The position numbers and the translations under genes are program-made. Positions 174 to 62,641 of a stretch of 64,000 bases of DNA are shown here, one piece after another. Under the pieces are notes generated by a model. It was not told the origin of the DNA. It did not search any database and saw only the letters and a list, made by a program, of their open reading frames with translations. How positions within the stretch are numbered: position 1 is the first letter of the stretch; every line of letters begins with the position of its first letter. The stretch lies in the NCBI GenBank assembly GCA_902800045.1, contig CADCCZ010000004.1, forward strand, positions 1 through 64,000, in the 5' to 3' direction. This stretch comes from an uncultured Bacteroidia bacterium (GTDB lineage Bacteria > Bacteroidota > Bacteroidia > Bacteroidales > ML635J-15).

Positions 174-3100
174 ATGAGAAATTTTGCAGTACTTATTTGT
201 GCCTTCTTAATGTCGTTTGCTTTTGACTCAATGGCATTAAACGCACCAACACTATCGTCTCCTAACGACGGTACAGTTTATTCATCTGTGATAAAGCCGA
301 CAGTTTCATGGAATTCCGTGTCTGGAGCGAATAAATACATATTGGATTGGGATACCGTATCTTCGTTTTCTTCTCCAAAGTTCCGTACATTTTCAACAAC
401 ATATTCTTATGTCAATTTAACAGCGCTGATGTATGGGACAACATATTACTGGAGAGTCCGTGCTGTAAATGAAAGTGCAAATGATACCTCGGACTATTCT
501 GCGGTACGGAATTTTACAACCTGTTCAGGTCCAACCTTAGATTACCCAAATGATGGGATGATTTATTCGTCAACCGTAAAGCCGACACTTTATTGGAATG
601 CAATTACAGGCGTTGGAAGTTATATCCTTGAATGGGACACTGTATCATCATTTTCATCGCCGATGTTTGGTACGTTTACAACTTCTTCAACAAATGTCAC
701 TATAAATGCATTGCTATACGGCACAACGTATTATTGGCGAGTAAAAGCAACCAATAGCGACGACAGCGATACATCAAGCTATTCCGCAGTTAGGAGTTTT
801 ACAACCTGCTCTGCTCCAACTCTAGATTATCCGAATAATGATATGATTTATACGACGACCGTAAGGCCAACAGTTTCATGGAATACAATCACAGGCGTTG
901 GAAGTTATATCCTTGAGTGGGATACAGTATCGTCATTTTCATCGCCGATGTTCAGTTCCTTAACAACATCTTCAACATCTGTCAATATTAATGGATTGCT
1001 ATTCGGCACAACGTATTATTGGCGCGTAAAGGCAACCAACAGCAACGACAGCGACACTTCCAGCTATTCCGAAGTTAGGAATTTTACAACTTGCTCGGCT
1101 CCAATTTTGAGCGCTCCAAGTAATGGTATGGTTTATACGACTATGGTACGGCCTTCAGTTTCATGGAATTCAATCACTGGCGCAGGAAGTTATATCCTAG
1201 AGTGGGATACAGTGCCTTCGTTTTCATCAACGATGTTCCGCACATATACAACATCATCGACATCCATTTATATTAATGGATTGCGATACAGCACAAAGTA
1301 CTATTGGCGCGTTAAGGCAACCAATACAAACGACAGCGACACATCAAGATATTCTGAGGTGTGGAATTTCACAACAGCCGGAACAGTTACTTTAAGTTCA
1401 CCAACCAACAATCCAAGTCCGACAGGCAGGTTTTATTCACGGCAGTATTTAAAGTGGAATACATTACCAGGCTCTTCGGAATACTTGATCCAGCTTGATA
1501 CAACTTCCGATTTCAGTTCAAGTGTATTGCGAAATATTAGTGTGACAACATCAAGTACAAGTTCAGATTCATACTATGAAAAGTGTGTGTACGATTTATA
1601 TTATGGAACAATGTACTATTGGAGAGTTTGTGCAATAAGTTCTGTCGATACAACCGACTGGTCTGAGACTTGGCAGTTTCATACGATGGACGATGTACAG
1701 CTGTTTTTCCCAAGTGATACTAGTGCAAATGGCACTTATTTTACACGGCAAGAATTTCAATGGAAGAATTCATTAGGTTCTAAATCGTATATTCTTCAGT
1801 TAGATACAGTTCCGAGTTTTGATTCTGGATTGTTGCAGAGCATAGATGTTTCATCATCAACTACAAACACAGATACATACATATACAAGTATATTTCCGA
1901 TATGCGTTATGGCACAATGTATTATTGGCGTGTATGTTCGGCAAATGCAGTTGATACATCGGGCTGGTCTGCTACATGGCGATTCCATACTACCGACTGG
2001 GTTGCGCTATATTATCTCAACGATACAAGTTCTACTGCTGGCTATTATACCCGCCAGGAACTTGAATGGAAAAATTCAAAAGGTTCAAAATCATATATTC
2101 TTCAGTTAGATACAGTCCCGAGTTTTGATTCCGGATTGTTGCGCAGCATAGATGTTTCATCATCAACCACCAACACCGATACATACATATACAAGTATGT
2201 TTCCGATATGCGTTATGGTACAATGTACTATTGGCGAGTTTGTGCTATAAACAATGCTGACACATCGGGCTGGTCTTCAACTTGGCAATTCCATACTGTC
2301 GACTGGGTTGTATTGGATTCTCCATCAAATAATAGTACAGGTTTGGCAGTTTCTTCGCGTACATTGTATTGGAAAAACTCCTTGGGCTCTTCTTCGTACA
2401 TAGTTCAGGTTGATACAACAAGAAACTTTAATTCGGAACTATTGCGTAATTTAAGCGTTTCGTCGTCAACGACAAGTACAGAAACATACAAGAGTACAAG
2501 CATAACGAATATGCTCTATGGAACAACTTATTATTGGCGGGTATGTGCGGCAAATGCTGCTGATACATCTGGTTGGTCGAGTGTATGGCGTTTCACTACT
2601 GCCTATCAGCTTACCTCTGGACCAGTGCTTGTAAGTCCAGAAAACAATAGCACCGAAATACAGCCATCTGGTGTCGATTTGGTATGGAATCCACTGGACA
2701 ATGTAACTGGTTACCGCTATCAGGTGTCGACCGACAATACTTTTGCAACAATATACCGCAGTGGCACCACAGTCAACACAACGGCAACCTGCTATCTAAA
2801 TTATGGCACAACTTACTATTGGCGTGTTCAAGGCTACAATGCAAGCGGAAATTCGGTTTGGTCTCAGGTGTGGAGTTTCGATACTCAATCGTGCGAACTC
2901 ACTGGCGAAACAGCTGTGGAGGCTTGTGGTTCGTATGTTTGGCGTGGTACAACCTACACCGAGTCGGGTGACTACGACTTTACCAAGCATCTGTCGAACG
3001 GTTGCGACAGCATAATAACCTTGCATCTGACAATCAACCAGTCGTCGGAGCGCGAATTCTCGTATAGCGCATGTGAAAGTTATACTTGGAACGGCGTGAC

Positions 3101-4331
3101 CTACGATGAAAGTGGTGACTATGTACAGAATATCACTGCATCAAACGGTTGCGACAGCGTTGTCACACTGCATCTTACAATCAATCAGCCAGTGGCCGAG
3201 CTAGTCGAAGTCGAGGCCTGCAATTCCTACCAATGGAATAACCAAACTTATACCGAAAGTGGTGATTATCAGCAGACTTTCACTGCTACAAATGGTTGCG
3301 ATAGCGTTGTGACTTTGCGTCTCACAATTAATGAATCTCCGCGTCGAGAATTTTCAGCTGTTTCGTGCGTCAGCTATGTATGGAACAATCAAACATACAC
3401 CCAATCTGGAAATTATGAGCAAACGATTTCATCCGATAATGGATGCGATAGCATTGTTACTCTGCATCTTACCATAAATCAGCCGCTTGCACATCAATTC
3501 GAAGCTACGGCTTGTGAATCTTACAATTGGAATGGCGAAATATATACCGCAAGTGGCAACTATCAGCAGACATTCACGGCTACCAATGGTTGCGATTCTG
3601 TTGTTACCCTGCATTTGACAATAAATCATCCGACTACAGCAGAATTCGCGGTTTCCGCTTGCGACTCCTACGAATGGAATGGTGAAACTTATACCGAGAG
3701 CGGTAATTATACTCAGACATTTATAATAGCTAACGGTTGTGATTCAGTTGTAACCTTGCATTTGACAATTAACCATCCGCAGACCCAACAATTTGAAGCC
3801 GAGGCTTGCAATTTCTATGTATGGAACGGTGTGTCATATAACGAAAGTGGTGACTATGTTCAGACTTTGTCTGCTGCAACTGGCTGCGATTCGGTCGTTA
3901 CGTTGCATCTTGTCATCAACGAACCTGTAACTTATGAGTTCGATACTTCTGTAAATGAAGCCTTCGTTTGGAATGGTGAAACATTTACCGAAACTGGCGA
4001 TTACACTCAGGCTTTCACTGCTGCCAACGGTTGCGATTCAATTGTAACCTTGCATTTGAATGTTTTAACTGGAATTTCGGAAGCAGAAATGCTGATAAAC
4101 ATTTTCCCAAATCCAGCAAACGACATCTTGAACATCACATCATCTGAAACAATTTCGGAAATTGAAATTGTAAATGCCTTGGGACAGGTTGTAAGGCGCA
4201 TGGAAGTGAATGCCGACAATGCTGTTTGCGATGTCGAAGATTTGACAAGCGGGGTGTATGTGGTTAGAATTCGCGCCCTTCGACAGGCTCAGGGAGCTGT
4301 TGTCTCACAACAAAAATTTGTAAAGGAATAA
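174..4331 (+). CDS. T9SS-secreted repeat adhesin with nine Fn3-like modules and eight GCDS repeats
   Basis: This 1385-residue protein has a signal peptide (about residues 1-20, MRNFAVLICAFLMSF). Nine fibronectin III-like modules of about 100 residues follow, each ending in YYWRV. Then come eight repeats of about 40 residues ending in GCDSVVTLHLTIN (3000-4065). The C-terminus is a type A T9SS sorting domain (IFPNPANDILNI, GVYVVRI, final KFVKE). No catalytic domain is visible, so a surface adhesin or glycan-binding role is the likely inference. Modules around 1790-1930 and 2096-2236 are nearly identical at DNA level with a 306-base period, a recent duplication. The start at 174 fits the promoter at 117-147. 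A REP-like sequence lies in frame within the sorting domain at 4276-4294. Confidence 0.85.
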   Translation: MRNFAVLICAFLMSFAFDSMALNAPTLSSPNDGTVYSSVIKPTVSWNSVSGANKYILDWDTVSSFSSPKFRTFSTTYSYVNLTALMYGTTYYWRVRAVNESANDTSDYSAVRNFTTCSGPTLDYPNDGMIYSSTVKPTLYWNAITGVGSYILEWDTVSSFSSPMFGTFTTSSTNVTINALLYGTTYYWRVKATNSDDSDTSSYSAVRSFTTCSAPTLDYPNNDMIYTTTVRPTVSWNTITGVGSYILEWDTVSSFSSPMFSSLTTSSTSVNINGLLFGTTYYWRVKATNSNDSDTSSYSEVRNFTTCSAPILSAPSNGMVYTTMVRPSVSWNSITGAGSYILEWDTVPSFSSTMFRTYTTSSTSIYINGLRYSTKYYWRVKATNTNDSDTSRYSEVWNFTTAGTVTLSSPTNNPSPTGRFYSRQYLKWNTLPGSSEYLIQLDTTSDFSSSVLRNISVTTSSTSSDSYYEKCVYDLYYGTMYYWRVCAISSVDTTDWSETWQFHTMDDVQLFFPSDTSANGTYFTRQEFQWKNSLGSKSYILQLDTVPSFDSGLLQSIDVSSSTTNTDTYIYKYISDMRYGTMYYWRVCSANAVDTSGWSATWRFHTTDWVALYYLNDTSSTAGYYTRQELEWKNSKGSKSYILQLDTVPSFDSGLLRSIDVSSSTTNTDTYIYKYVSDMRYGTMYYWRVCAINNADTSGWSSTWQFHTVDWVVLDSPSNNSTGLAVSSRTLYWKNSLGSSSYIVQVDTTRNFNSELLRNLSVSSSTTSTETYKSTSITNMLYGTTYYWRVCAANAADTSGWSSVWRFTTAYQLTSGPVLVSPENNSTEIQPSGVDLVWNPLDNVTGYRYQVSTDNTFATIYRSGTTVNTTATCYLNYGTTYYWRVQGYNASGNSVWSQVWSFDTQSCELTGETAVEACGSYVWRGTTYTESGDYDFTKHLSNGCDSIITLHLTINQSSEREFSYSACESYTWNGVTYDESGDYVQNITASNGCDSVVTLHLTINQPVAELVEVEACNSYQWNNQTYTESGDYQQTFTATNGCDSVVTLRLTINESPRREFSAVSCVSYVWNNQTYTQSGNYEQTISSDNGCDSIVTLHLTINQPLAHQFEATACESYNWNGEIYTASGNYQQTFTATNGCDSVVTLHLTINHPTTAEFAVSACDSYEWNGETYTESGNYTQTFIIANGCDSVVTLHLTINHPQTQQFEAEACNFYVWNGVSYNESGDYVQTLSAATGCDSVVTLHLVINEPVTYEFDTSVNEAFVWNGETFTETGDYTQAFTAANGCDSIVTLHLNVLTGISEAEMLINIFPNPANDILNITSSETISEIEIVNALGQVVRRMEVNADNAVCDVEDLTSGVYVVRIRALRQAQGAVVSQQKFVKE
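4276..4294. repeat. REP-like palindrome inside the T9SS sorting domain
   Basis: CCCTTCGACAGGCTCAGGG is an imperfect palindrome with CCCT/AGGG arms. I recognise it as a sequence dispersed in many bacterial genomes. Here it is translated in frame as part of RALRQAQG, between the conserved GVYVVRI strand and the terminal KFVKE strand of the sorting domain. Confidence 0.75.
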
Positions 4332-14300: not shown

Positions 14301-17300
14301 ACAACTAATAATACTTATACTAGCTTTACTGTAAAGCTTAGTGGAAACAATTACATTGAGGCTCCGACAACTTGGACTCAATATACCTATGACTTGTCGG
14401 CTTACGACGGACAGACTATTTATGTTGCAATACAGTGCGTTTCGAACGATGCATTCGCATTCCTGATTGATGATATCCTCATCTCGAGCGAATACACCGA
14501 ACCAGATGCTGAATTTACAGCCGACAACACTACTATCGAAGCAGGTCAGACGGTTAACTTCACCGACCAATCTACAATGATGCCTACATCGTGGTCGTGG
14601 ACTTTCGATGGCGGTACTCCATCAACAAGCACACAGCAGAATCCAAGCGTTGTATATAGCACTCCTGGCACTTACTCGGTAAGCCTTACCGCTACAAACG
14701 CACAAGGTTCCAACACCGAAACCAAGACAGGCTACATAACAGTAACTCGCGCAGCTGAAGTTATCGTTGAATGGAACTTCCCGACAAATAGCGCCGATGC
14801 AACTGCTGATGCAGGTATTCAGGCAAACCTTAACAAGACCTTGACCGTTGGCGGTGGTGTTAATACTCCAACCTATACAACAAATGGCGCTTCAACAAGG
14901 TGTGCAAGTGCTACAAACTGGCAAAATGGTAATAATTCAAAATATTGGACAGTAAACTTTACTACTTCTGGTTACGAAAGCATTAAGTTCTGGTCGAAGC
15001 AGAGTGGTAATAATAATAGGTCGCCTAGAGATTTCAAGGTACAGTACAGTTTGAATGGTTCTACATGGACAGATGTATCAGGAACTAATGTTACAGTTGC
15101 AAGGAACTGGACTTCAGGTATTCTTGAAGGAATATCACTTCCTGCTGCATGTAATAATCAGGCAACGGTTTACCTCAGGTGGATAATGAGGTCGACTACA
15201 GGTATTGGCGGCAATACAGTGAATGCTAATACTTATGCTTCATTAATCGACGACATTGTTGTAAAAGGTGTAGAAATGGCAGCAGCTCCTGAAGCAGAAT
15301 TTGCTGCTAATGCAACTAGTGTTTGCCCTGGTGCAACGGTTACTTTCACTGACCAGAGTATAAATAATCCTACTTCGTGGTCGTGGAACTTCGGCGACGG
15401 TGGTACATCTACCGAGCAGAACCCAACACACACCTACGCAACTGCTGGCAACTACACAGTAACTTTGGTTGCTGGCAATGCAAATGGTACCGATACCGAA
15501 ACCAAGAACAATTACATTACGGTAAATGCTAATCCAACCGTTTCGGTTGCTGCTCCGCAGGCTTATTGCGCTGGCGAAACTGCCGCAATCAATGCAACCG
15601 TTTCGGGTGCAACTACCTATGCTTGGAGCGGTCCTAACGGTTTCACAGCTTCTACTCAGAACGCTTCGATAGCAAATGCTACTGCTTCGAATGCAGGAAC
15701 ATACACAATCACAGTCACAAGTGCTGCTTCGTGTTCTGCTACTGCTTCGGCAAACCTTACAATTAATGCTGCTCCTTCGCTTACTGCTTCGAATGGCGGT
15801 CCTTACTGCGAAGGCGCAACAATAGCACTTTCGGCAACTGGCAACGGCGGAACTTCATATTCGTGGAGCGGTCCCGACGGATTCACTTCTACTCAGCGTA
15901 ACCCGTCTATCGCTAATGCCGATGCCGACAATGCCGGTACTTATACCGTAACTCTTACAAATAACACAACAGGATGTTCGACTTCGGCAACTACAAATGT
16001 TACCGTAAATGCTCTTCCTACTCTTAACCCATCTAACGATGGTCCTTACTGTGCAGGAAGCACCATCAGACTTAATGCTAATGGCGCAAACGGAACTGTA
16101 TATGCATGGAGCGGTCCTAACTTCACATCCAATGTTGCTAACCCGACAATTGCCAACTCGGCTGCTTCGAATGCTGGAACCTACAATGTAACGCTTACCA
16201 ATTCGGTAACAGGTTGCTCGGTTGAGGCAAGCACAGTTGTCGTAGTAAATGCTGTTCCTACAGTTATCGCTTCGAATGGCGGTGCATATTGTGCTGGTCA
16301 GACAATCGCTTTGTCGGCAGCTTCTAATGCTACATCGTTTGCATGGAGCGGTCCTAACGGATACACTTCGGCAGAGCAGAACCCGACAGTTGCAAATGCA
16401 ACAACAAGCAACGGTGGTACCTATACTGTTACTGCAACAAATGCAAACGGATGTTCGGCAGCTTCGAGCACTGTTGTCAGCGTAAATGCAGCTCCAACTG
16501 CTAATGCTTCGAATGGTGGTCCATACTGCGTAGGACAGGCAGTCGCATTGCAGACAACTGCAACTGGAACCTATTCGTGGAGTGGTCCTAACGGATTTAC
16601 TTCAACCCAGCAGAATCCGACTATCGCAAACTCGACTTTGGCAGCTGCTGGTACATATACCTTGGTGGTTTCGAATGCAAACGGATGTACAGCAAATGCT
16701 ACTACAGAAGTTGTTGTAAACGATGCTCCTACGGCTAGCGTTTCGAATGAAGGTCCTTATTGCGAGGGCGCTAGCATAGCACTTACAGCTGTTGTAACCA
16801 ATGCTGCTTCGTACTCGTGGAGCGGTCCTAATGGATTTACCTCGAATGTACAAAATCCTACCATCGACAATGCTACAACAGCAAATGCCGGAATCTACAC
16901 TTTGGTTGCAACCACTGGCGAATGCTCGGCAGAAGCAACTACAACGGTTGTTGTAAATGCAGCTCCTGTAGCTAATGCAACCAACAACGGTCCATACTGC
17001 GAAGGCGCAACAATCTACTTGCAGACAACAGCAACCGGCACCTACGCATGGAGCGGTCCTAACGGATTCACTTCGACTCAGCAGAACCCGACTATCGACA
17101 ATGCTGTAACAACCAACGGCGGAACCTACAGCCTGGTTGTAACAGGTGCCAACGGTTGTGTTGCAAATGCAAGCACCGATGTTGTAGTAAATGCTACTCC
17201 AACATTGACTGCTTCGAATGGCGGTGCATATTGCGCTGGCGAAACAATCTCGTTGTCGGCAACTTCCGATGCAGCTTCGTTTGCATGGAATGGTCCTAAC

Positions 17301-20300
17301 GGATTCACATCAACTCAGCAGAACCCGACTATCGCAAATGCTACTACCAATAATGCAGGTTTGTACACCGTAGTTGCAACAGGCGCAAACGGATGTGAAG
17401 CAAATGCAAGCACAACAGTTGTTGTAAACACTAATCCTACTGCCGATGCATCGAACACTGGTGCTTACTGCGAGGGCGCAACTATCGAGTTGCATACAAC
17501 AGCAACTGGCACCTACGCATGGAGCGGTCCTAACGGGTTCACTTCTAACTTGCAGAACCCGACCATCGCAAACGCTACACTTGCTAATGGCGGTGAATAT
17601 ACCTTGGTAGTTTCGAATGCAAACGGATGTAATGCCGAAGCTAGCACAATGGTTGTCGTAAATGCAAACCCGACAATCGAACTTGGTGCAAACCAGACCG
17701 TATGTTCGGGTGCAACTGCTGTTCTCGACGCTGGTGCTGGTCTTACCTACCACTGGTCGACGGGAGCATCAACCCAGACAATTGTTGCAACTGCAGGCGA
17801 CTACTACGTTACAGTTTACAATGCAAACGAATGTTCGGCTACCGACAATATTTCGGTTGCAAACTATCCGCAGACAATTCTTACAACGTCATCAACAGCA
17901 GAATCGCACAACAATGCTCTTGACGGTACTGCAACAGTAACTCCGAACGGTACTGCACCATTCGCATATATGTGGTCGAACAATGGCAACACCGCAACTA
18001 TCAGTGGACTTGCTGGTGGCAACTACAACGTTACCGTAACCGATGGAAATGGATGCGAAACTACTGCGATAGTAAATGTTGCAACAATGAACACTCCTCC
18101 AGTTGCCGATTTCTCTGTTAACAATACAACCGTATGCCTTGGCGTAGAAGTCGCATTTACCGACCTTTCGACAAATACTCCTACTCAGTGGGCATGGAAC
18201 TTTGGCGATGGACAAACATCCAACCTACAGAACCCAACCCACACATACGCCGCTGCTGGCAGCTACAATGTTTCGCTCACTGTTACAAATCAGGACGGAA
18301 GTGATACCAAGCAGGTTGCAGGCTATGTGGTTGTAAATGCTGTTCCTACAGCCAATGCAACTAACACCGGCGCATATTGTGCAGGCGAAACCATCGAGCT
18401 TTCGGTCGAAAGCGACATAGCTACCGAATACCAGTGGGTTGGTCCTATGGGCTTCAGCAGCACATTGCAGAACCCGACACGTGCAAATGCAACTACAAAC
18501 CATACTGGAACATATTCGGTAACCGTAACTACTGCCAACGGATGTTTGGCTGTGGCAACAACAGATGTAACCGTAAATGCTAATCCAGTGGCAAATGCAA
18601 CCAACAACGGTCCTTACTGCGAGGGCGCAACAATCGCATTGCAGACAACAGCAACCGGCACCTACGCATGGAGCGGTCCTAACGGATTTGTTTCGAACGA
18701 ACAGAACCCGACCATTGGCAATGCTACAACCGAAAATGCTGGAGAATATACCTTGGTAGTTTCGAACGTAAGCGGATGTTCTGCTCAGGCAAGCACGGTG
18801 GTTGTCGTAAATGCAACCCCGACACTGACAACTTCGAACGATGGCGCATATTGTGCAGGCGAAACAATCTCGTTGTCAGCAATTTCAGATGCTACTTCGT
18901 TTGCATGGAGCGGTCCTAACGGATACACTTCGGCATTGCAGAACCCGACTATCGCAAACGCAACACCTAATAATAGTGGTACATATACGGTAGTTGCAAC
19001 CAGTGCAAATGGTTGTTCGGTCGAAGCAAGCACAAATGTCGTTGTATATGCAAATCCTGTTGCTTCTATTACCAACAATAGCGGTACGACAGTTTTGAAT
19101 TGTACGACAACTTCAATTCAGCTTGTTGCAAATGGCGGTACTTCATATTCGTGGAATGGCGTAACAGGCAATGCCGAATACACTGTTACTGCTGCTGGTG
19201 TTTATACAGTAGTTGTAACCAACGAAGGCAATTGTACCGACGAGGCTTCGATAACAATAACCTCCGACGGTAATAATCCTATGGTTTCAATCGATGGTGG
19301 CTTGACCTACTGCGAAGGCTCGACAATTTCGTTCACTGCAACATCCGACGTTCCTGCAACATTTGCATGGGAAGGTCCTAACGGATTTACAGCAAACACG
19401 GCATCAATCTCGATACCGAATGCAACAACCAACAATAGTGGAGCATACGTTGTTACTGCTACTCCAGCCAACGGCTGTGCAGTAAATTCTTCAGCAAATG
19501 TGGTTGTTAATGCAAATCCGAGTGTTGCAATTTCGAACAATGGTCCAGTTTGCGAAAGCGGACAGGTAACATTTACAGCTTCGAGCAACGAAACATTGTC
19601 ATACTCGTGGAGCGGTCCTAACGGATTTGCTTCTACCGAAGCTTCTCCGGTAATTTCGGCAGCAACATTAGCCAATGCAGGTACTTATACCCTCGAAGTA
19701 GAAAATGTGGCTACAGGCTGTGTAAATACATTCCAGACCGAATTGGTAGTAAATGCTAATCCTATGGTAAGCCTTGGCGACGATATTGCAGTTTGTGCAA
19801 ATGTCGAGGCAGTTCTCAATGCAACCGCAGGTTTCGTTTCGTACACATGGAACGGCGTTGCTGGTTCGCAGACTTACACTGCAACCGTAGATGGCATCTA
19901 TACCGTAGTTGTTACCGACAACCACGGATGTACTGCAAGCGATATGGTATCGGTAACTCATTACGAATTGCCAGTTCTTGCTCTTACATCTACTAACGAA
20001 ACAGGTACAGGACAGCACGATGGTACTGCAATGGTTGAAATCACTTCAGGCGTAGCTCCTTACTCGATATTATGGAGCACCAACGCAACTACAGCGCAGA
20101 TTACAGGTCTTACAAATGGCCAGTATTCGGTAGTTGTAACCGATGACAACGGCTGCGAAGTTAGCGGTTCGGTTAATGTTGGTCTTACCAACACACCGCC
20201 GGTAGCAGCTTTCGAAGCTTCGGCAACATCTGGCTGTGCTCCTCTTACAGTAAACTTCACCGATGCAAGTACCAACTATCCGCAGTCGTGGACATGGTAT

Positions 20301-21335
20301 TTCGGTGAAACAACTTCCAATGAGCAGAATCCTACTTTCGAGTTTGCCGAGCCAGGTACATATACCGTTATGTTAATGGTATCTAACCCGGATGGAACCA
20401 ACGTAGCAACATCTGTAATCCGCGTTTACGCTAACCCGACAATCAACTTGGGCGACGACCTGACAGCTTGCGTAGGCTCAGCCGTTACGGTAAATGCCGC
20501 AGCAGGTTTCGCAGCGTATGCATGGAGCAACGGTGCTACCGAAAGCACGATAGAAGTTACCGAGGCTGGTAGCTATTCGGTTGTAGTAACCGACGATCAC
20601 GGATGTACAGCTACCGACGATGTTGCAGTTACATTCAACCCGCTGCCTGTAATTGAACTTGGCGACGACGTTAATGTATGTAGCAATGCTTCGGCAGAAA
20701 TAAATGCTGGCGAAGGTTATGCATCGTATGCATGGAGCACCGGCGACGCAACCCAGTCGATAATGGTTTCGGCTGCTGGCGAATATACTGTAACTGTAAC
20801 CAACGAATTTGCTTGTTCGGCTTCCGATGCTGTAAACGTAGCAGTATTGCAAGCTCCGACAATTTCGCTCGACGATGTCACAGCATGCACCAACCAGGAA
20901 GTGATGCTCACTATCGAAACCGACGATTTTGTATTGTGGCTCGATGAAGTCGAAGGCAATACATACACAGAGACTTATCCGTATGCTGGCGAATATCAGG
21001 TATGGGTAACCGTAAGCAACGAATATTGCGAAACTACAGATACCGTAACAGTAACTGTTGAACTTTGCAACGGCGTTGAAGAAATGTCGGTTATGGAAAT
21101 TCAGCTCTACCCGAATCCAGTACGTGATATTGCAACATTCACTGTATCGGGATACGAAGGAAATGTTTCATACTCTGTTGTTGACCTCAGCGGCAGGGAA
21201 ATGACCTTCGAGACTGTTTCTGTAGCAGGCGAGGCAGTTCACACTGTTGACGTAAGCAACTTTGTTCCTGGAATGTATATCCTCAGGGTTACAACTGGTA
21301 CAGAGGTTCACAACCTGAAGTTTACCAAGGAATAA
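11394..21335 (+). CDS. Giant T9SS-secreted trypsin-like protease with PKD, jelly-roll, Ig-like and SprB repeats
   Basis: This 3313-residue protein starts with a signal peptide (residues 1-29, ending DSVSAQ) and a chymotrypsin-fold domain. Its triad is His277 (LTAFHCG), Asp337 (GGSDFLLLL) and Ser420 (GGSSGSPLF), as in the lysyl endopeptidase-like S1 group. PKD domains lie near 493-578, 756-846, 1036-1120 and 1300-1379. A Cleaved_Adhesin/choice-of-anchor-J jelly-roll like that of gingipains covers 853-1036, and another jelly-roll covers 1122-1300. About fourteen Ig-like repeats of about 80 residues with WSGPNGF and YTVVVTNANGC signatures fill 1379-2790. They are interrupted by SprB-like repeats (about 2163-2230 and 2863-2933) and more PKD domains. 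The end (3225-3313) is a type A sorting domain ([21 protein letters not shown]). Likely role: a surface-anchored or released protease-adhesin. Substrate specificity is not readable. Confidence 0.9.
15530..19770 (+). repeat. Array of about 240-base Ig-like repeats in the giant protease gene
   Basis: About fourteen DNA repeats of about 234-246 bases encode the WSGPNGF modules. Several are close at DNA level, for example copies near 16970-17200 and 18590-18820. This is a setting for slippage and unequal recombination. Two PKD/SprB blocks break the array near 17880-18340 and 19065-19300. Confidence 0.8.
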
Positions 21336-21393: not shown

Positions 21394-21476
21394 TTGCTGT
21401 TTGTCTTTCTTGCCCCCATGCCTTAAGGGCATTAAAGTCGTTAAGACCTTTAATGGCTGGGGGCAAAAAACAGCAA
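21394..21476. repeat. Hairpin repeat family A, copy A1
   Basis: There are three nested stems. The outer is TTGCTGTTT/AAACAGCAA (21394-21402, 21468-21476). The middle is TTGCCCCCA/TGGGGGCAA (21410-21418, 21458-21466), 9 bp perfect. The inner is GGCATTAAAGTC with GACCTTTAATGGC. It ends 4 bases before the pyrF stop codon, so it may also serve as a terminator for pyrF on the minus strand. Confidence 0.8.
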
Positions 21477-22439: not shown

Positions 22440-22560
22440 AAGGCTAGCAGAAGGCTGTTGCCCCCCACACATGCCTTAAGGTCTTTAAAGGCCTTAATGG
22501 CTTTAAAGATGGGGGGGGGGGAAAGACTTCTTGCCTTCTAGCCTTTTAGCCTTCAGTCCA
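22440..22560. repeat. Hairpin repeat family A, copy A2, with a G11 run
   Basis: TTGCCCCCC (22458-22466) faces a run of eleven G (22511-22521). Inner segments GGTCTTTAAAGG and GGCTTTAAAGA can pair. The outer words GCTAGCAGAAGGC and GCCTTCTAGCC also pair. The spacer 22338-22596 otherwise holds AT-rich direct words (GATTTACGATTT) and GCTAACAG/CTGTTAG words. No gene is seen. Confidence 0.7.
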
Positions 22561-28429: not shown

Positions 28430-28469
28430 ACTTTTTTTAGTGCCTGCGGCGGATGAGGGCTAAAGCCCG

Positions 28470-28586
28470 TTTTTATGCCTTCGGCGTTTCTATGGCTTCG
28501 CCGTTTCTATGCCTACGGCGTTTCTGTGGCTTCGCCGTTTCAATGGCTTCGCCGTTTCTGTGTTTCAGGTTTCTGTGGCTTCGCCG
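28470..28586. repeat. 17-base tandem repeats with mini-hairpins (family D)
   Basis: Units begin at 28470, 28487, 28504, 28521, 28538 and 28570 in the form TTTCTATGGCTTCGCCG. The centre alternates between GGCTTCGCC, GCCTTCGGC and GCCTACGGC, so both arms change together. The rest of 28430-28640 holds GGGCTAAAGCCC and repeat C1. Similar words in reverse orientation occur at 48241-48335. Confidence 0.85.
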
Positions 28587-28590
28587 TTCC

Positions 28591-28632
28591 TGAGACGCAA
28601 TGAATTGCGCCTATACAAACGGCTTTCAGCCT
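28591..28632. repeat. Repeat family C, copy C1
   Basis: TGAGACGCAATGAATTGCGC followed by CTATACAAACGGCT and a pyrimidine-rich tail. The core GCAATGAATTGC is an inverted repeat. A second copy lies at 30228-30270. Confidence 0.8.
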
Positions 28633-31227: not shown

Positions 31228-32292
31228 CTAATATTTTATAATCTTTGTCGTTGTCGAACTGCCGTCGGCGAAAGTTGCTTTTACGAAGTAAATTCCGCTT
31301 TCGTACTGTTCGATGTTAATGGTTGCAAAGTTAGCATCTGTTTCGCAGTAAAAAGTTTTTTTGCCAAGAATATTGAATACCGACACCGAAACCATTGGTT
31401 GTTCGCAAGATATGTTTACCATGTCAGCCGACGGGATAGGGTATGCCGATAGTTTTGCCGTGGTTTGTGCGATGTTGGTTCCGGCATCGGGACCGAGGCA
31501 CGACTCGAAGTCGCAGTGGTCGTGCCAGATTGCATCGACGAAATATGGGCAGTCGATAAACGGGTTGCGGTTGCGCTGTATGGTGTATATTGCATTGTTG
31601 CGGTCGATTTCCTTTTGCGACACGGGGTCGGCGTAGTGCCATTGTATTAGCATCTGCAGAGCCCAGGGTTTCAGCTGGCTGCCGGTAAACATAGATTCGC
31701 TGGCCTGACCGAGGTTTTTGTCCATGTAGCAAACGCTCATATAAAAATAGGTGCGAGCGAGGTCGCCCTTGTACTCGTCGGCGGGTTCGAAAGCGGTTCC
31801 CGAGTAGCCCGGAAATGTGCAAGGTCCCAGTTTGCTGCCGTTGCTTGATGTGAAAGTAGGATTAGAAACTGTTCCCAGCGGCCAATTGTCGCGTTTGTTG
31901 TTTACATGTCCGTCGGTTGGATAGACGTGGAAGAGGTCGGTTTTCATTGGGGTTGCATCGCCGAACCAGCTTTGTGGCACCGAGTGTTCGCGGTTGTAGC
32001 ATACGCATTCGCCGTTGTAGTTACCGCATTGGTCGGTGCTGTATATGAAATCGCAGTTTGAGTATATGTCCCAGATGGTGTCGCCGTTGCGTAGGTCGGT
32101 CTGGTAGAATTTTGCCCACAGCTGTCCGTAGTCGAATACGGTATGGCTCGAAATTATCGAGTATAGAGTTTGGCGCAGTTCCTCGCCGCAGAGGTCGCGA
32201 GTGGCGTTGTAGTAGTTTGCTGGCATTTGAGCGAACGAAGTTGTGGCGCAAAGGCAAGCTGCAAAAAGTAATATCTTGTGCATAAATTTCAT
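31228..32292 (-). CDS. Secreted endonuclease I with T9SS sorting domain
   Basis: This 354-residue protein has a signal peptide (MKFMHKILLFAACLCATTSF, cleavage near FAQ). The endonuclease I / NucM fold shows the His-metal motif REHSVPQSWFG (histidine in EHS) with DLFHVYPTDGHVNNKRDNWP and the later EYKGDLARTYFYMSVCY. The C-terminus is a T9SS sorting domain (LSAYPIPSADMVNIS, GIYFVKA). It probably degrades external DNA for nutrition or biofilm escape. The open frame continues upstream to 32697, but that 135-residue extension is translated repeat DNA. The promoter at 32308-32337 and the signal peptide fix the start at 32292. Confidence 0.92.
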   Translation of the reverse strand: MKFMHKILLFAACLCATTSFAQMPANYYNATRDLCGEELRQTLYSIISSHTVFDYGQLWAKFYQTDLRNGDTIWDIYSNCDFIYSTDQCGNYNGECVCYNREHSVPQSWFGDATPMKTDLFHVYPTDGHVNNKRDNWPLGTVSNPTFTSSNGSKLGPCTFPGYSGTAFEPADEYKGDLARTYFYMSVCYMDKNLGQASESMFTGSQLKPWALQMLIQWHYADPVSQKEIDRNNAIYTIQRNRNPFIDCPYFVDAIWHDHCDFESCLGPDAGTNIAQTTAKLSAYPIPSADMVNISCEQPMVSVSVFNILGKKTFYCETDANFATINIEQYESGIYFVKATFADGSSTTTKIIKY

Positions 32293-32307
32293 CGGTAAAA
32301 TTTTTTG

Positions 32308-32337
32308 CAAAGATACAATAATTTGCAGGGATTCAAA
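32308..32337 (-). promoter_or_regulatory. Promoter of the endonuclease I gene
   Basis: On the minus strand TTTG (32334-32337) and TATCTTTG (32308-32315) lie 18 bases apart. It excludes the longer start at 32697. Confidence 0.78.
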
Positions 32338-32384
32338 TATTGAATGTTTTAAGCGCCATGCCGATATGAATAATGCTTGGTATT

Positions 32385-32465
32385 GTGTGTGGAGATCTCG
32401 GATAGCAGTCTCCGCAACGCTCCCCGTTCCGTATCGCGTGTGCGCTCTGGCTTCCGCGATGACTT
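32385..32465. repeat. Repeat family B, copy B1
   Basis: About 80 bases beginning GTGTGTGGAGATCTCGGATA and ending GCTTCCGCGATGACT. The ends are near inverted repeats (ATCGCGGA/TCCGCGAT in the consensus). On the minus strand it reads as the VIAEASRSTRHGTGSVAETA type of false protein. Confidence 0.85.
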
Positions 32466-32498
32466 GGAGGGAGGGATTGTGGTTTGTGACAAGAAAAT

Positions 32499-32582
32499 AC
32501 CGCAATGTTGTTTGCCCCCTCCGCCCTAAGGTCCTTAAAAACCTTAAGGGCGTTAAACTTGGGCAAAAACATAACGTGCGGT
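32499..32582. repeat. Hairpin repeat family A, copy A3
   Basis: Nested stems: ACCGCA/TGCGGT (32499-32504, 32577-32582), TTTGCCC/GGGCAAA (32511-32517, 32561-32567) and CGCCCTAAGG/CCTTAAGGGCG (32522-32531, 32542-32552). It lies between B1 and B2. Confidence 0.85.
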
Positions 32583-32585
32583 AAT

Positions 32586-32665
32586 GTGAGTGGAGATCGC
32601 GGATAGCAGTCTCCGCAACGCTCCCCGTTCCGTGTCGCGTGCTACGACTGGCTTCCGCGATGACT
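32586..32665. repeat. Repeat family B, copy B2
   Basis: Same sequence as B1 with few changes, beginning GTGGAGATCGCGGATAGCAG and ending CTTCCGCGATGACT. B1 to B2 is a 201-base period with A3 between them. Confidence 0.85.
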
Positions 32666-32699
32666 GCTAGGGTGGGCTGTCTGTGTTTTGTTGTCACAT

Positions 32700-32747
32700 G
32701 TTGTTCTAGTTGTCGTTTTATTTTTTTACGACAACCTAGACAACAAC
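32700..32747. repeat. Hairpin between repeat B2 and purN
   Basis: GTTGTTCTAGTTGTCGT and ACGACAACCTAGACAACAAC are inverted with two small bulges around a T-rich loop. It may be the end of purN transcription, or another repeat type. No U run follows on either strand. Confidence 0.6.
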
Positions 32748-32798
32748 GGACAACCTTTTCCGAGCGTAGCGTTTTTAATTGATTTGCATCTTGTCCGT

Positions 32799-48090: not shown

Positions 48091-48199
48091 GCAGAAAGGG
48101 CTGGCTGGCTAACAGAAATGCAATTGTCCCCACATGCCTTAAGGTCTTTAAAGGCCTTAAGGGCCTTAAAGATGGGGACAAGTCTGTTAGCCTTTCTGC
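48091..48199. repeat. Hairpin repeat family A, copy A4
   Basis: Nested stems: GCAGAAAGG/CCTTTCTGC (48091-48099, 48191-48199), GGCTAACAG/CTGTTAGCC (48107-48115, 48184-48192), TTGTCCCCA/TGGGGACAA (48124-48132, 48173-48181) and inner TTTAAAGG/CCTTAAAG. In the third stem, C to T and G to A changes relative to A1 keep the pairing. Confidence 0.85.
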
Positions 48200-62117: not shown

Positions 62118-62279
62118 GCCGAGCTAAAGGTTACGAAGGCTAGTTCTTGAATTTCGTTCGCGCTGTCACAGTTTTTGTTTGCTCCATTTCATTCCGCTGC
62201 AAAAACTCCGCCAGCGCTTTTCCACCGCAGCTACCGCTGCTACATATATGTGACCCCGCTGGGGTCTATGGCAACAATT

Positions 62280-62358
62280 ACCGCAATGTTGTTTGCCCCT
62301 CCTCGCCCTAAGGTCCTTAAAAACCTTAAGGGCGTTAAATTGGGCAAAAGTGTGCGGT
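62280..62358. repeat. Hairpin repeat family A, copy A5
   Basis: ACCGCA/TGCGGT (62280-62285, 62353-62358) and TTTGCCC/GGGCAAA (62292-62298, 62342-62348) enclose CGCCCTAAGG/CCTTAAGGGCG, almost identical to A3. Preceding 62118-62279 has T-rich and CCCCGCTGGGG words but no gene. Confidence 0.85.
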
Positions 62359-62360
62359 AA

Positions 62361-62442
62361 TGTGTGTGGAGATCGCGGATAGCCGACCGCAACAACGCTC
62401 CCCGTTCCGTATCGCGTGTGCGCTCTGGCTTCCGCGATGACT
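62361..62442. repeat. Repeat family B, copy B3
   Basis: Same unit as B1 and B2: TGTGTGTGGAGATCGCGGAT at the start and GCTTCCGCGATGACT at the end, with a small change in the middle (AGCCGACCGCAACAACG). It lies between A5 and A6. Confidence 0.85.
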
Positions 62443-62471
62443 GGTAGGCTGGGGTCGGCGGTGAGAAAATT

Positions 62472-62560
62472 ACCGCAATGTTTTTTGCCCCACCGCCCTA
62501 TGTAGGGGCAGGTTTAAACCTGCCCCTACATGGCGTTAAACTTGGGCAAAACCATGCGGT
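62472..62560. repeat. Hairpin repeat family A, copy A6, with a 32-base palindrome as its tip
   Basis: ACCGCA/TGCGGT (62472-62477, 62555-62560) and TTTGCCC/GGGCAAA (62484-62490, 62544-62550) are as in A3 and A5. The central segment is replaced by a perfect 32-base palindrome at 62500-62531, with arms ATGTAGGGGCAGGTTT. Bases just outside (CCGCCCTA and GGCGTTAAACTT) match A3, so the boundaries of the exchange are sharp. Confidence 0.88.
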
Positions 62561-62641
62561 ATTGTTGCACATTTTTTTGAATTTTGTCCGCATAATATTT
62601 ATGGTATAATTTATGCATTCCACCAATCAAAATATTTTACC

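Follow-up and report, generated by a model that had tools for sequence, protein, structure and literature searches.

Layout of the Two Hairpin Arrays

The DNA analysed here, a stretch of 64,000 nucleotides that we call the window, carries two islands of hairpin repeats (Table 1). The 32-kb island lies between purN and an endonuclease I gene, and the 62-kb array is flanked by ettA and a divergently transcribed gene. An earlier note on this DNA had described two alternating repeats, A and B, in the orders B1-A3-B2 and A5-B3-A6. Both orders were borne out, with a B-to-B period of 201 at 32391-32664 and an A-to-A period of 192 at 62279-62561, and every A and B copy in both arrays is on the + strand. 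B2 and B3 carry exactly the inverted ends that the note had given for B (ATCGCGGA/TCCGCGAT), whereas the left end of B1 is ATCTCGGA. The B core had three matches in the window, compared with 0.00 expected from shuffles. Since the 3' end of an A copy stands directly before B1, the 32-kb array was (A)-B-A-B. Module E, the right neighbour of B2, is also found after B at C1:932, C3:136, C8:63 and C8:88 kb.

Table 1. Hairpin modules, linkers and related repeats in the window.
Feature	Position	Strand	Remark
3' remnant of an upstream A (GGTATTGTGTG), fused to B1	32379-32389	+	Junction as in the complete A-B pair at C2:196 kb (TGCGGTATTGTGTGTGGAGATC)
B1 hairpin (GGAGATCTCGG...TTCCGCGATGAC)	32391-32463	+	Row in B alignment
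B-to-A linker, 34 bp	32464-32497	+	Resembles D-to-A linker tail (..TTTGTGACAAGAAAA)
A3: outer TACCGC..GCGGTA / TTTGCCC..GGGCAAA, inner CTTAAGG hairpin	32498-32583	+	Single-stranded DNA fold -23.8 kcal/mol, z -7.1
B2 hairpin	32592-32664	+	B core, alignment
Module E, inverted repeat GTTGTC..GTTGTCGT / ACGACAAC..GACAAC	32689-32756	+	Typical right neighbour of B
Module D, ending in hairpin GACCCCGCTGGGGTC (62252-62266)	62153-62266	+	Typical left neighbour of A
A5	62279-62359	+	Fold z -6.1
B3 hairpin	62368-62441	+	Fold z -2.3
B-to-A linker, 29 bp, half D hairpin plus its tail (..GGCTGGGGTCGGCGGTGAGAAAAT)	62442-62470	+	
A6, inner hairpin replaced	62471-62561	+	Fold -32.4 kcal/mol, z -8.2
Perfect palindrome ATGTAGGGGCAGGTTTAAACCTGCCCCTACAT, GTAG double-foot REP nested in A6 loop	62500-62531	.	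Same hairpin (TTTGAAA centre) within RAYT-like genes
Related nested hairpin, TTGCCCCC..CTTAAGG..GGGGGCAA in outer arms GCTGTTT..AAACAGC	21401-21476	.	
Related CTTAAGG hairpin, TTGCCCCC/GGGGG arms inside outer arms GGCTAGCAG/CTAGCC	22458-22522	.	
Related nested hairpin, TTGTCCCC..CTTAAGG..GGGGACAA in outer arms GGCTAACAG/CTGTTAGCC	48118-48191	.	

A CRISPR reading of the arrays was dismissed on inspection, both alternating parts being repeats. No Rfam family matched the array region, the sole match being a 5S rRNA at the window start, and the B-A-B unit had no match in phage and plasmid collections. The 5S rRNA (1-83) is cut by the contig start, so that the contig start is probably an rRNA operon. 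Note that a minus-strand open frame (31228-32697) continues from the endonuclease I gene across all of the 32-kb array, the minus-strand B reading VIAEASRSTRHGTGSVAETAIRDLH; this frame was taken as probably an accidental, false extension of that gene.

Order, Strand and Spacing of A and B in the Genome

Copies of both repeats were counted by BLAST and pattern searches in the genome from which the window comes (G000; 3.2 Mb, 13 contigs). The B-A-B stretch as BLAST query gave 49 matches in this genome, and 20 A copies and 20 B copies of the window type were placed. B was located within 60 bp of A for 12 of the 20 A copies, and the adjacent A/B pairs had both members on the same strand without exception (14/14), with gaps of 1-14 bp from A to B and 26-42 bp from B to A. 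When copies were placed at random (2000 runs), the mean number of A copies adjoining B was 0.04-0.32 and the maximum 3, compared with the 12 observed; the mean of 0.32 and the maximum of 3 came from a stricter placement confined to 12% of the genome. Note that many copies are related by descent, so that adjacent pairs are not independent events and the adjacency counts are inflated. In the relatives, A and B have the same order and strand as in this genome. The A+B units recur at many loci and in related species, as clustered hairpin elements in fixed strand and order.

On the other hand, 8 of the 20 A copies have no adjacent B, and B without A also exists. The picture that the earlier note had set against its own reading, A and B occurring independently with no preferred order or spacing, does not describe this genome, in which independent copies exist and order and spacing are nevertheless strongly preferred. 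The proposal that the repeats moved as compound units held in part. The same composite junctions recur at unrelated loci, as does a composite of A with the GTAG REP; however, A+B is not one element but two often-joined families, since 8 of 20 A copies lack B and the B family is much larger and occurs without A. We also observed about 2 kb of repeated gene DNA between two A/B arrays at G000:C2:193962-196047, where in a G005 contig one array joins both outer flanks. Array recombination at this place may shift gene cassettes.

Nested Structure of A and Exchange of Its Loop

A is a hairpin within a hairpin, in which outer TACCGC..GCGGTA arms enclose middle TTTGCCC..GGGCAAA arms and an inner CTTAAGG hairpin, and it folds as single-stranded DNA with z values of -6.1 to -8.2. 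The inner part of A6 differs from that of A3 and A5, being a palindrome with GTAG and CTAC at its ends. This inner hairpin is also present in frame in RAYT-like genes of the same genome (C1:1.066 Mb; L033:1682-1712) and of three relatives (L310, L311, L313), and A with the GTAG inner REP was found at an unrelated locus in G016. In addition, the loop of A is exchanged at one orthologous site, G007 differing there from G000, G014, G017 and G021. Homologous RAYT-like genes in G014 and G023 are without the in-frame GTAG double-foot hairpin.

A has the inverted ends TTACCGC/GCGGTAA, by which we also designate the A type. No target-site duplication was resolved for A, singlet B or the compound unit; at the empty sites compared for the 32-kb array and for the solitary A of C9:57 kb, the intergenic flanks are too diverged for one to be read. 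The twelve A 5' ends that were found all belong to short A copies, and some A copies stand directly at the stop codons of genes for secreted proteins.

B Is a Covarying Hairpin of a Wider Family

B (also designated GGAATGAC-type) has the core ACGC-TCCCCGTTCCGTATC-GCGT and belongs to a large hairpin family. In the genus, the core is present at 5-74 copies per genome in 13 of 26 genomes and at none in the other 13, and the reversed control gave 0. Among the matches listed from an exact scan of genome contigs for the B core, all were Bacteroidales or Bacteroidia MAGs, many of them labelled rumen, reticulum or omasum; the source of the window is apparently a rumen-type Bacteroidales bacterium.

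Across an alignment of 56 distinct B copies, the 15-nt loop is nearly invariant, and the stem changes on both sides. Specifically, 11 pairs were changed on both sides, and the number of double-change cells was 145, compared with 62 in shuffles and 15-57 in slid controls. Judged from these aligned copies, B is a maintained, covarying hairpin with a conserved 15-nt loop. As single-stranded folds, two of the three B copies in the window were no better than shuffles (z -0.5 and -1.4). Many B hairpins, of differing subtypes, have a further element of the TGCTTNGCAGATGC..GCATAG..AAAGCATT type inserted in the 3' arm at nearly the same point.

In the wider B family, B makes up the right-hand side of an inverted pair, GTCATTCCG..CGGAATCTCC facing GGAGATTCCG..CGGAATGAC, which is REPIN-like. 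This REP-style inverted-pair unit also occurs alone with constant ends (about query 690-850); in the window, each B copy is a singlet with A attached. Furthermore, a 253-bp element encloses the B-type inverted pair between terminal inverted repeats of ~20 bp (GGAAACTATATACGTGTTGAC / GTCAACTTGTATATAGTTACC). At one site, G000:C2:180966-181208, this MITE is bordered by a 6-bp duplication, ATTTTT, and G005:C28 has the precise empty site. There are about 10 copies of it in the genome of the window and up to ~20 in G017. No autonomous partner was found among the matches listed, in which its paired ends are separated by just 150-370 bp or so, and the B copies of the window are without its ends.

Module D, Linkers and Transposase Genes

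D hairpins (GACCYCNNNGRGGTC) number 27 in the genome of the window (control, 0), and they also occur in 10 other genomes of the genus. Arrays of GACCTCGGAGAGGTC hairpins (GACCYC..GRGGTC, the D type), often 50 bp apart, flank IS200-type TnpA genes in G006, G007, G041 and G022. The protein at L302 is such an IS200-type transposase, with WQ and YINNQKEHH, and the TnpA with D-type arrays appears to resemble subclass 1.2, as assigned from motifs only. The linkers from B to A resemble those from D to A without the left arm of the D hairpin. This truncation points to a probable origin of the tandem units in duplication, with the break close to the apex of the D hairpin.

Among about 50 Y1 transposase loci examined in the genus, none was flanked by A or B hairpins and no cognate transposase gene for A or B was found; a direct Y1 link thus exists only for D and for the inner hairpin of A6. 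The RAYT genes of the window's own genome were rejected as partners of A or B, their hairpins being of different types (GGATTTGCAATCC, CAGACTTCCAGTCTG and GTAGGGGCAGG). The NCBIfam RAYT score of the RAYT-like gene in this genome was 70.3, below the cut-off of 80. A and B are short, palindromic and intergenic, as REPs are, and have tens of copies in the genome. However, the GTAG/GTGG foot is absent at the A and B ends and present only in the inner palindrome of A6, and since both this foot and a cognate gene were looked for and not found, we do not claim REP/REPIN membership for A and B.

Variation between Related Species

We compared the arrays with orthologous sites in genomes of the same genus, all of which appear to be draft MAGs, so that repeat arrays in them may be collapsed, misjoined or misassembled. 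Seven relatives lack the 32-kb island at the orthologous site, where G002 and G016 have longer insertions. At the 62-kb site, the A-B-A of the window contrasts with a truncated B and an A with a collapsed loop in G005. At another locus, where flanks are 85-99% identical, the arrangement is D-A-B in G007, G021 and G005, and D-B-A-B in G017. At C4:157 kb, A and B are separated by 237 bp of other modules in the genome of the window, whereas they are adjacent in G005. The comparison for expansion or loss that the earlier note had called for was thus made between species, and unit content differs at orthologous sites, the 62-kb one included. Some of this variation has the look of units gained or lost in tandem and of exchanged loops.

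Origin of the Islands

We consider it likely that the arrays are mosaic intergenic islands of non-autonomous REP/MITE-like hairpins that inserted beside and inside each other, with A+B subsequently copied and then gained or lost in tandem. The islands would be built from several small hairpin families of this kind (D, A, B, E and others), each probably spread by the action of a transposase on single-stranded hairpins, of the Y1/HUH type as for REPs and REPINs; such an enzyme is the likeliest agent, and cognate transposases are presumed for A and B as well. New copies would land beside existing hairpins or in their loops, which would account for the nested A and for the loop exchanged in A6. 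A and B would have become joined on one strand, and the composite would then have been copied to many loci, by a mode that we can only infer. Local tandem duplication and deletion would finally yield the arrays (A)B-A-B and A-B-A, whose period is close to 200 bp. In favour of this picture are the order and spacing of A and B, the covariation of B, the uneven presence of its core in the genus, the empty and variable orthologous sites, the mobility of DNA bearing B as seen in the 253-bp element, the nesting, and the D-type arrays beside TnpA genes. Against it stand the absence of A and B hairpins from the flanks of about 50 Y1 loci, the missing GTAG/GTGG foot and target-site duplications of A and B, the poor folds of two window B copies, the apparent draft state of the comparison genomes, and the descent of many copies from one another.

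Much of this layout could also be imagined without any transposase, as a passive mosaic produced only by segmental duplication, gene conversion and slippage at palindromes, A and B never having been moved as units. Illegitimate tandem duplication near the D hairpin apex is expected to leave truncated D-to-A linkers, such as those found from B to A; repeated gene DNA lies between the arrays at C2:193 and C2:196 kb, and in G005 the loop of A6 has collapsed between short repeats. We nevertheless regard this explanation as rather unlikely, given the scatter of B cores over 5-74 places in 13 genomes and their absence from 13 others in the genus, the duplication and the precise empty site of the 253-bp element that bears B, and the recurrence of REPIN-like copies with constant ends. 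The same 253-bp element, with its ~20-bp terminal inverted repeats and 6-bp duplication around B-bearing pairs, and the inverted ends of A (TTACCGC/GCGGTAA) would suit A and B being MITEs of an unknown DDE insertion sequence, recognised through double-stranded terminal inverted repeats and arrayed by mutual insertion. This is quite improbable, however, as the window B copies lack the 253-bp ends, no autonomous copy was seen (paired ends about 150-370 bp apart), all twelve A 5' ends are in short A copies, and no duplication was resolved around A.

The compensatory changes and the invariant loop of B are what a selected RNA would show, and with some A copies right at the stop codon of secreted-protein genes, the hairpins could be read as cis-acting RNA (terminators, attenuators or mRNA stabilisers) serving host regulation, with the tandem layout tuning its strength. 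Of all the explanations we give this one the least credit: covariation is equally expected if a protein reads the DNA hairpins, the region has no match in Rfam, the genes on either side of the 62-kb array are transcribed divergently, and seven relatives are without the 32-kb array.

Under the reading that we prefer, mobile hairpins inserting beside and inside each other, a bolder extension seems to us possible rather than probable, namely that hairpin loops are preferred landing sites of other mobile hairpins, that elements grow by nesting and loop exchange, that A+B then becomes a new mobile unit, and that D belongs to TnpA subclass 1.2. The layers built up in this way would be the outer TACCGC arms of A, its middle TTTGCCC arms and its inner CTTAAGG or GTAG hairpin. 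The related genomes offer a readable series of small parasitic hairpins joining into composites, with sites that are empty, that carry one unit or two, or that have exchanged loops. The D hairpin with the IS200-type TnpA and the A6 inner hairpin with the RAYT are concrete candidate pairs, and they bear on two questions, a preference of Y1 transposases for the loops of hairpins as targets and the existence of repeats that belong to subclass 1.2 enzymes.

Relation to Known Systems

The closest precedent comes from P. fluorescens SBW25. There, GI and GIII REPs take turns along the same strand, forming ordered tandem arrays whose period is 184 bp, and clusters also arise when elements insert into existing ones or alongside them (PMC3116915). 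The present arrays likewise consist of two hairpin families alternating on one strand in ordered tandem. However, phylum and sequences are different, A is nested rather than a simple REP, and A and B have no GTAG foot and no cognate RAYT was found. In RAYT/TnpAREP subclass 2.4, double-foot REPs lie in frame within the transposase gene (PMC6006769); similarly, the inner palindrome of A6 has GTAG/CTAC ends and lies in frame in PDHFH..YIMENP genes of the genus, although here the REP also sits in the loop of an unrelated repeat, and the subclass was assigned by way of motifs and description rather than by placing the protein in a tree. For TnpA subclass 1.2, the Y motif is Y---Q--HH, the HUH motif is DH[IV]H, and no REPs are listed (PMC6006769). 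The L302 protein shares WQ and YINNQKEHH with this subclass, whereas HUH in the L302 type is NHIH and the genes here are flanked by GACCYC..GRGGTC hairpin arrays.

REPs inserted in palindromes have been described, as have mosaic intergenic regions (PMC3733652, PMC3049150). BIMEs, Neisserial intergenic mosaic elements and pneumococcal BOX are, like the islands here, intergenic mosaics of modules with preferred order and variable unit number (PMC3049150, PMC3733652); the modules, ends and hosts differ, and the likeness drawn here is one of arrangement. BrickBuilt of Porphyromonas gingivalis is a Bacteroidales MITE with internal tandem repeats (PMC4596501), but what it carries is a minisatellite within a single MITE, whereas distinct hairpin families alternate here and most units are without MITE ends. 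Since alternating REP arrays and REPs in palindromes are already on record, the A/B arrays represent a variant within a known class. They are set apart by how deeply the hairpins are nested, by the exchange of loops at orthologous sites, by the conservation of the B loop, and by arrays of hairpins surrounding a transposase that resembles subclass 1.2.

Other Repeats in the Window

An imperfect 17-bp tandem repeat (CGTTTCTATGGCTTCGC type) at 28467-28594 is also present at several intergenic places of the genome. In addition, the window has long repeat-rich coding stretches at 427-2828, 2997-4059 and 15605-20807, with in-frame periods of about 285-306, 147 and 237 bp, which probably encode surface or secreted proteins.
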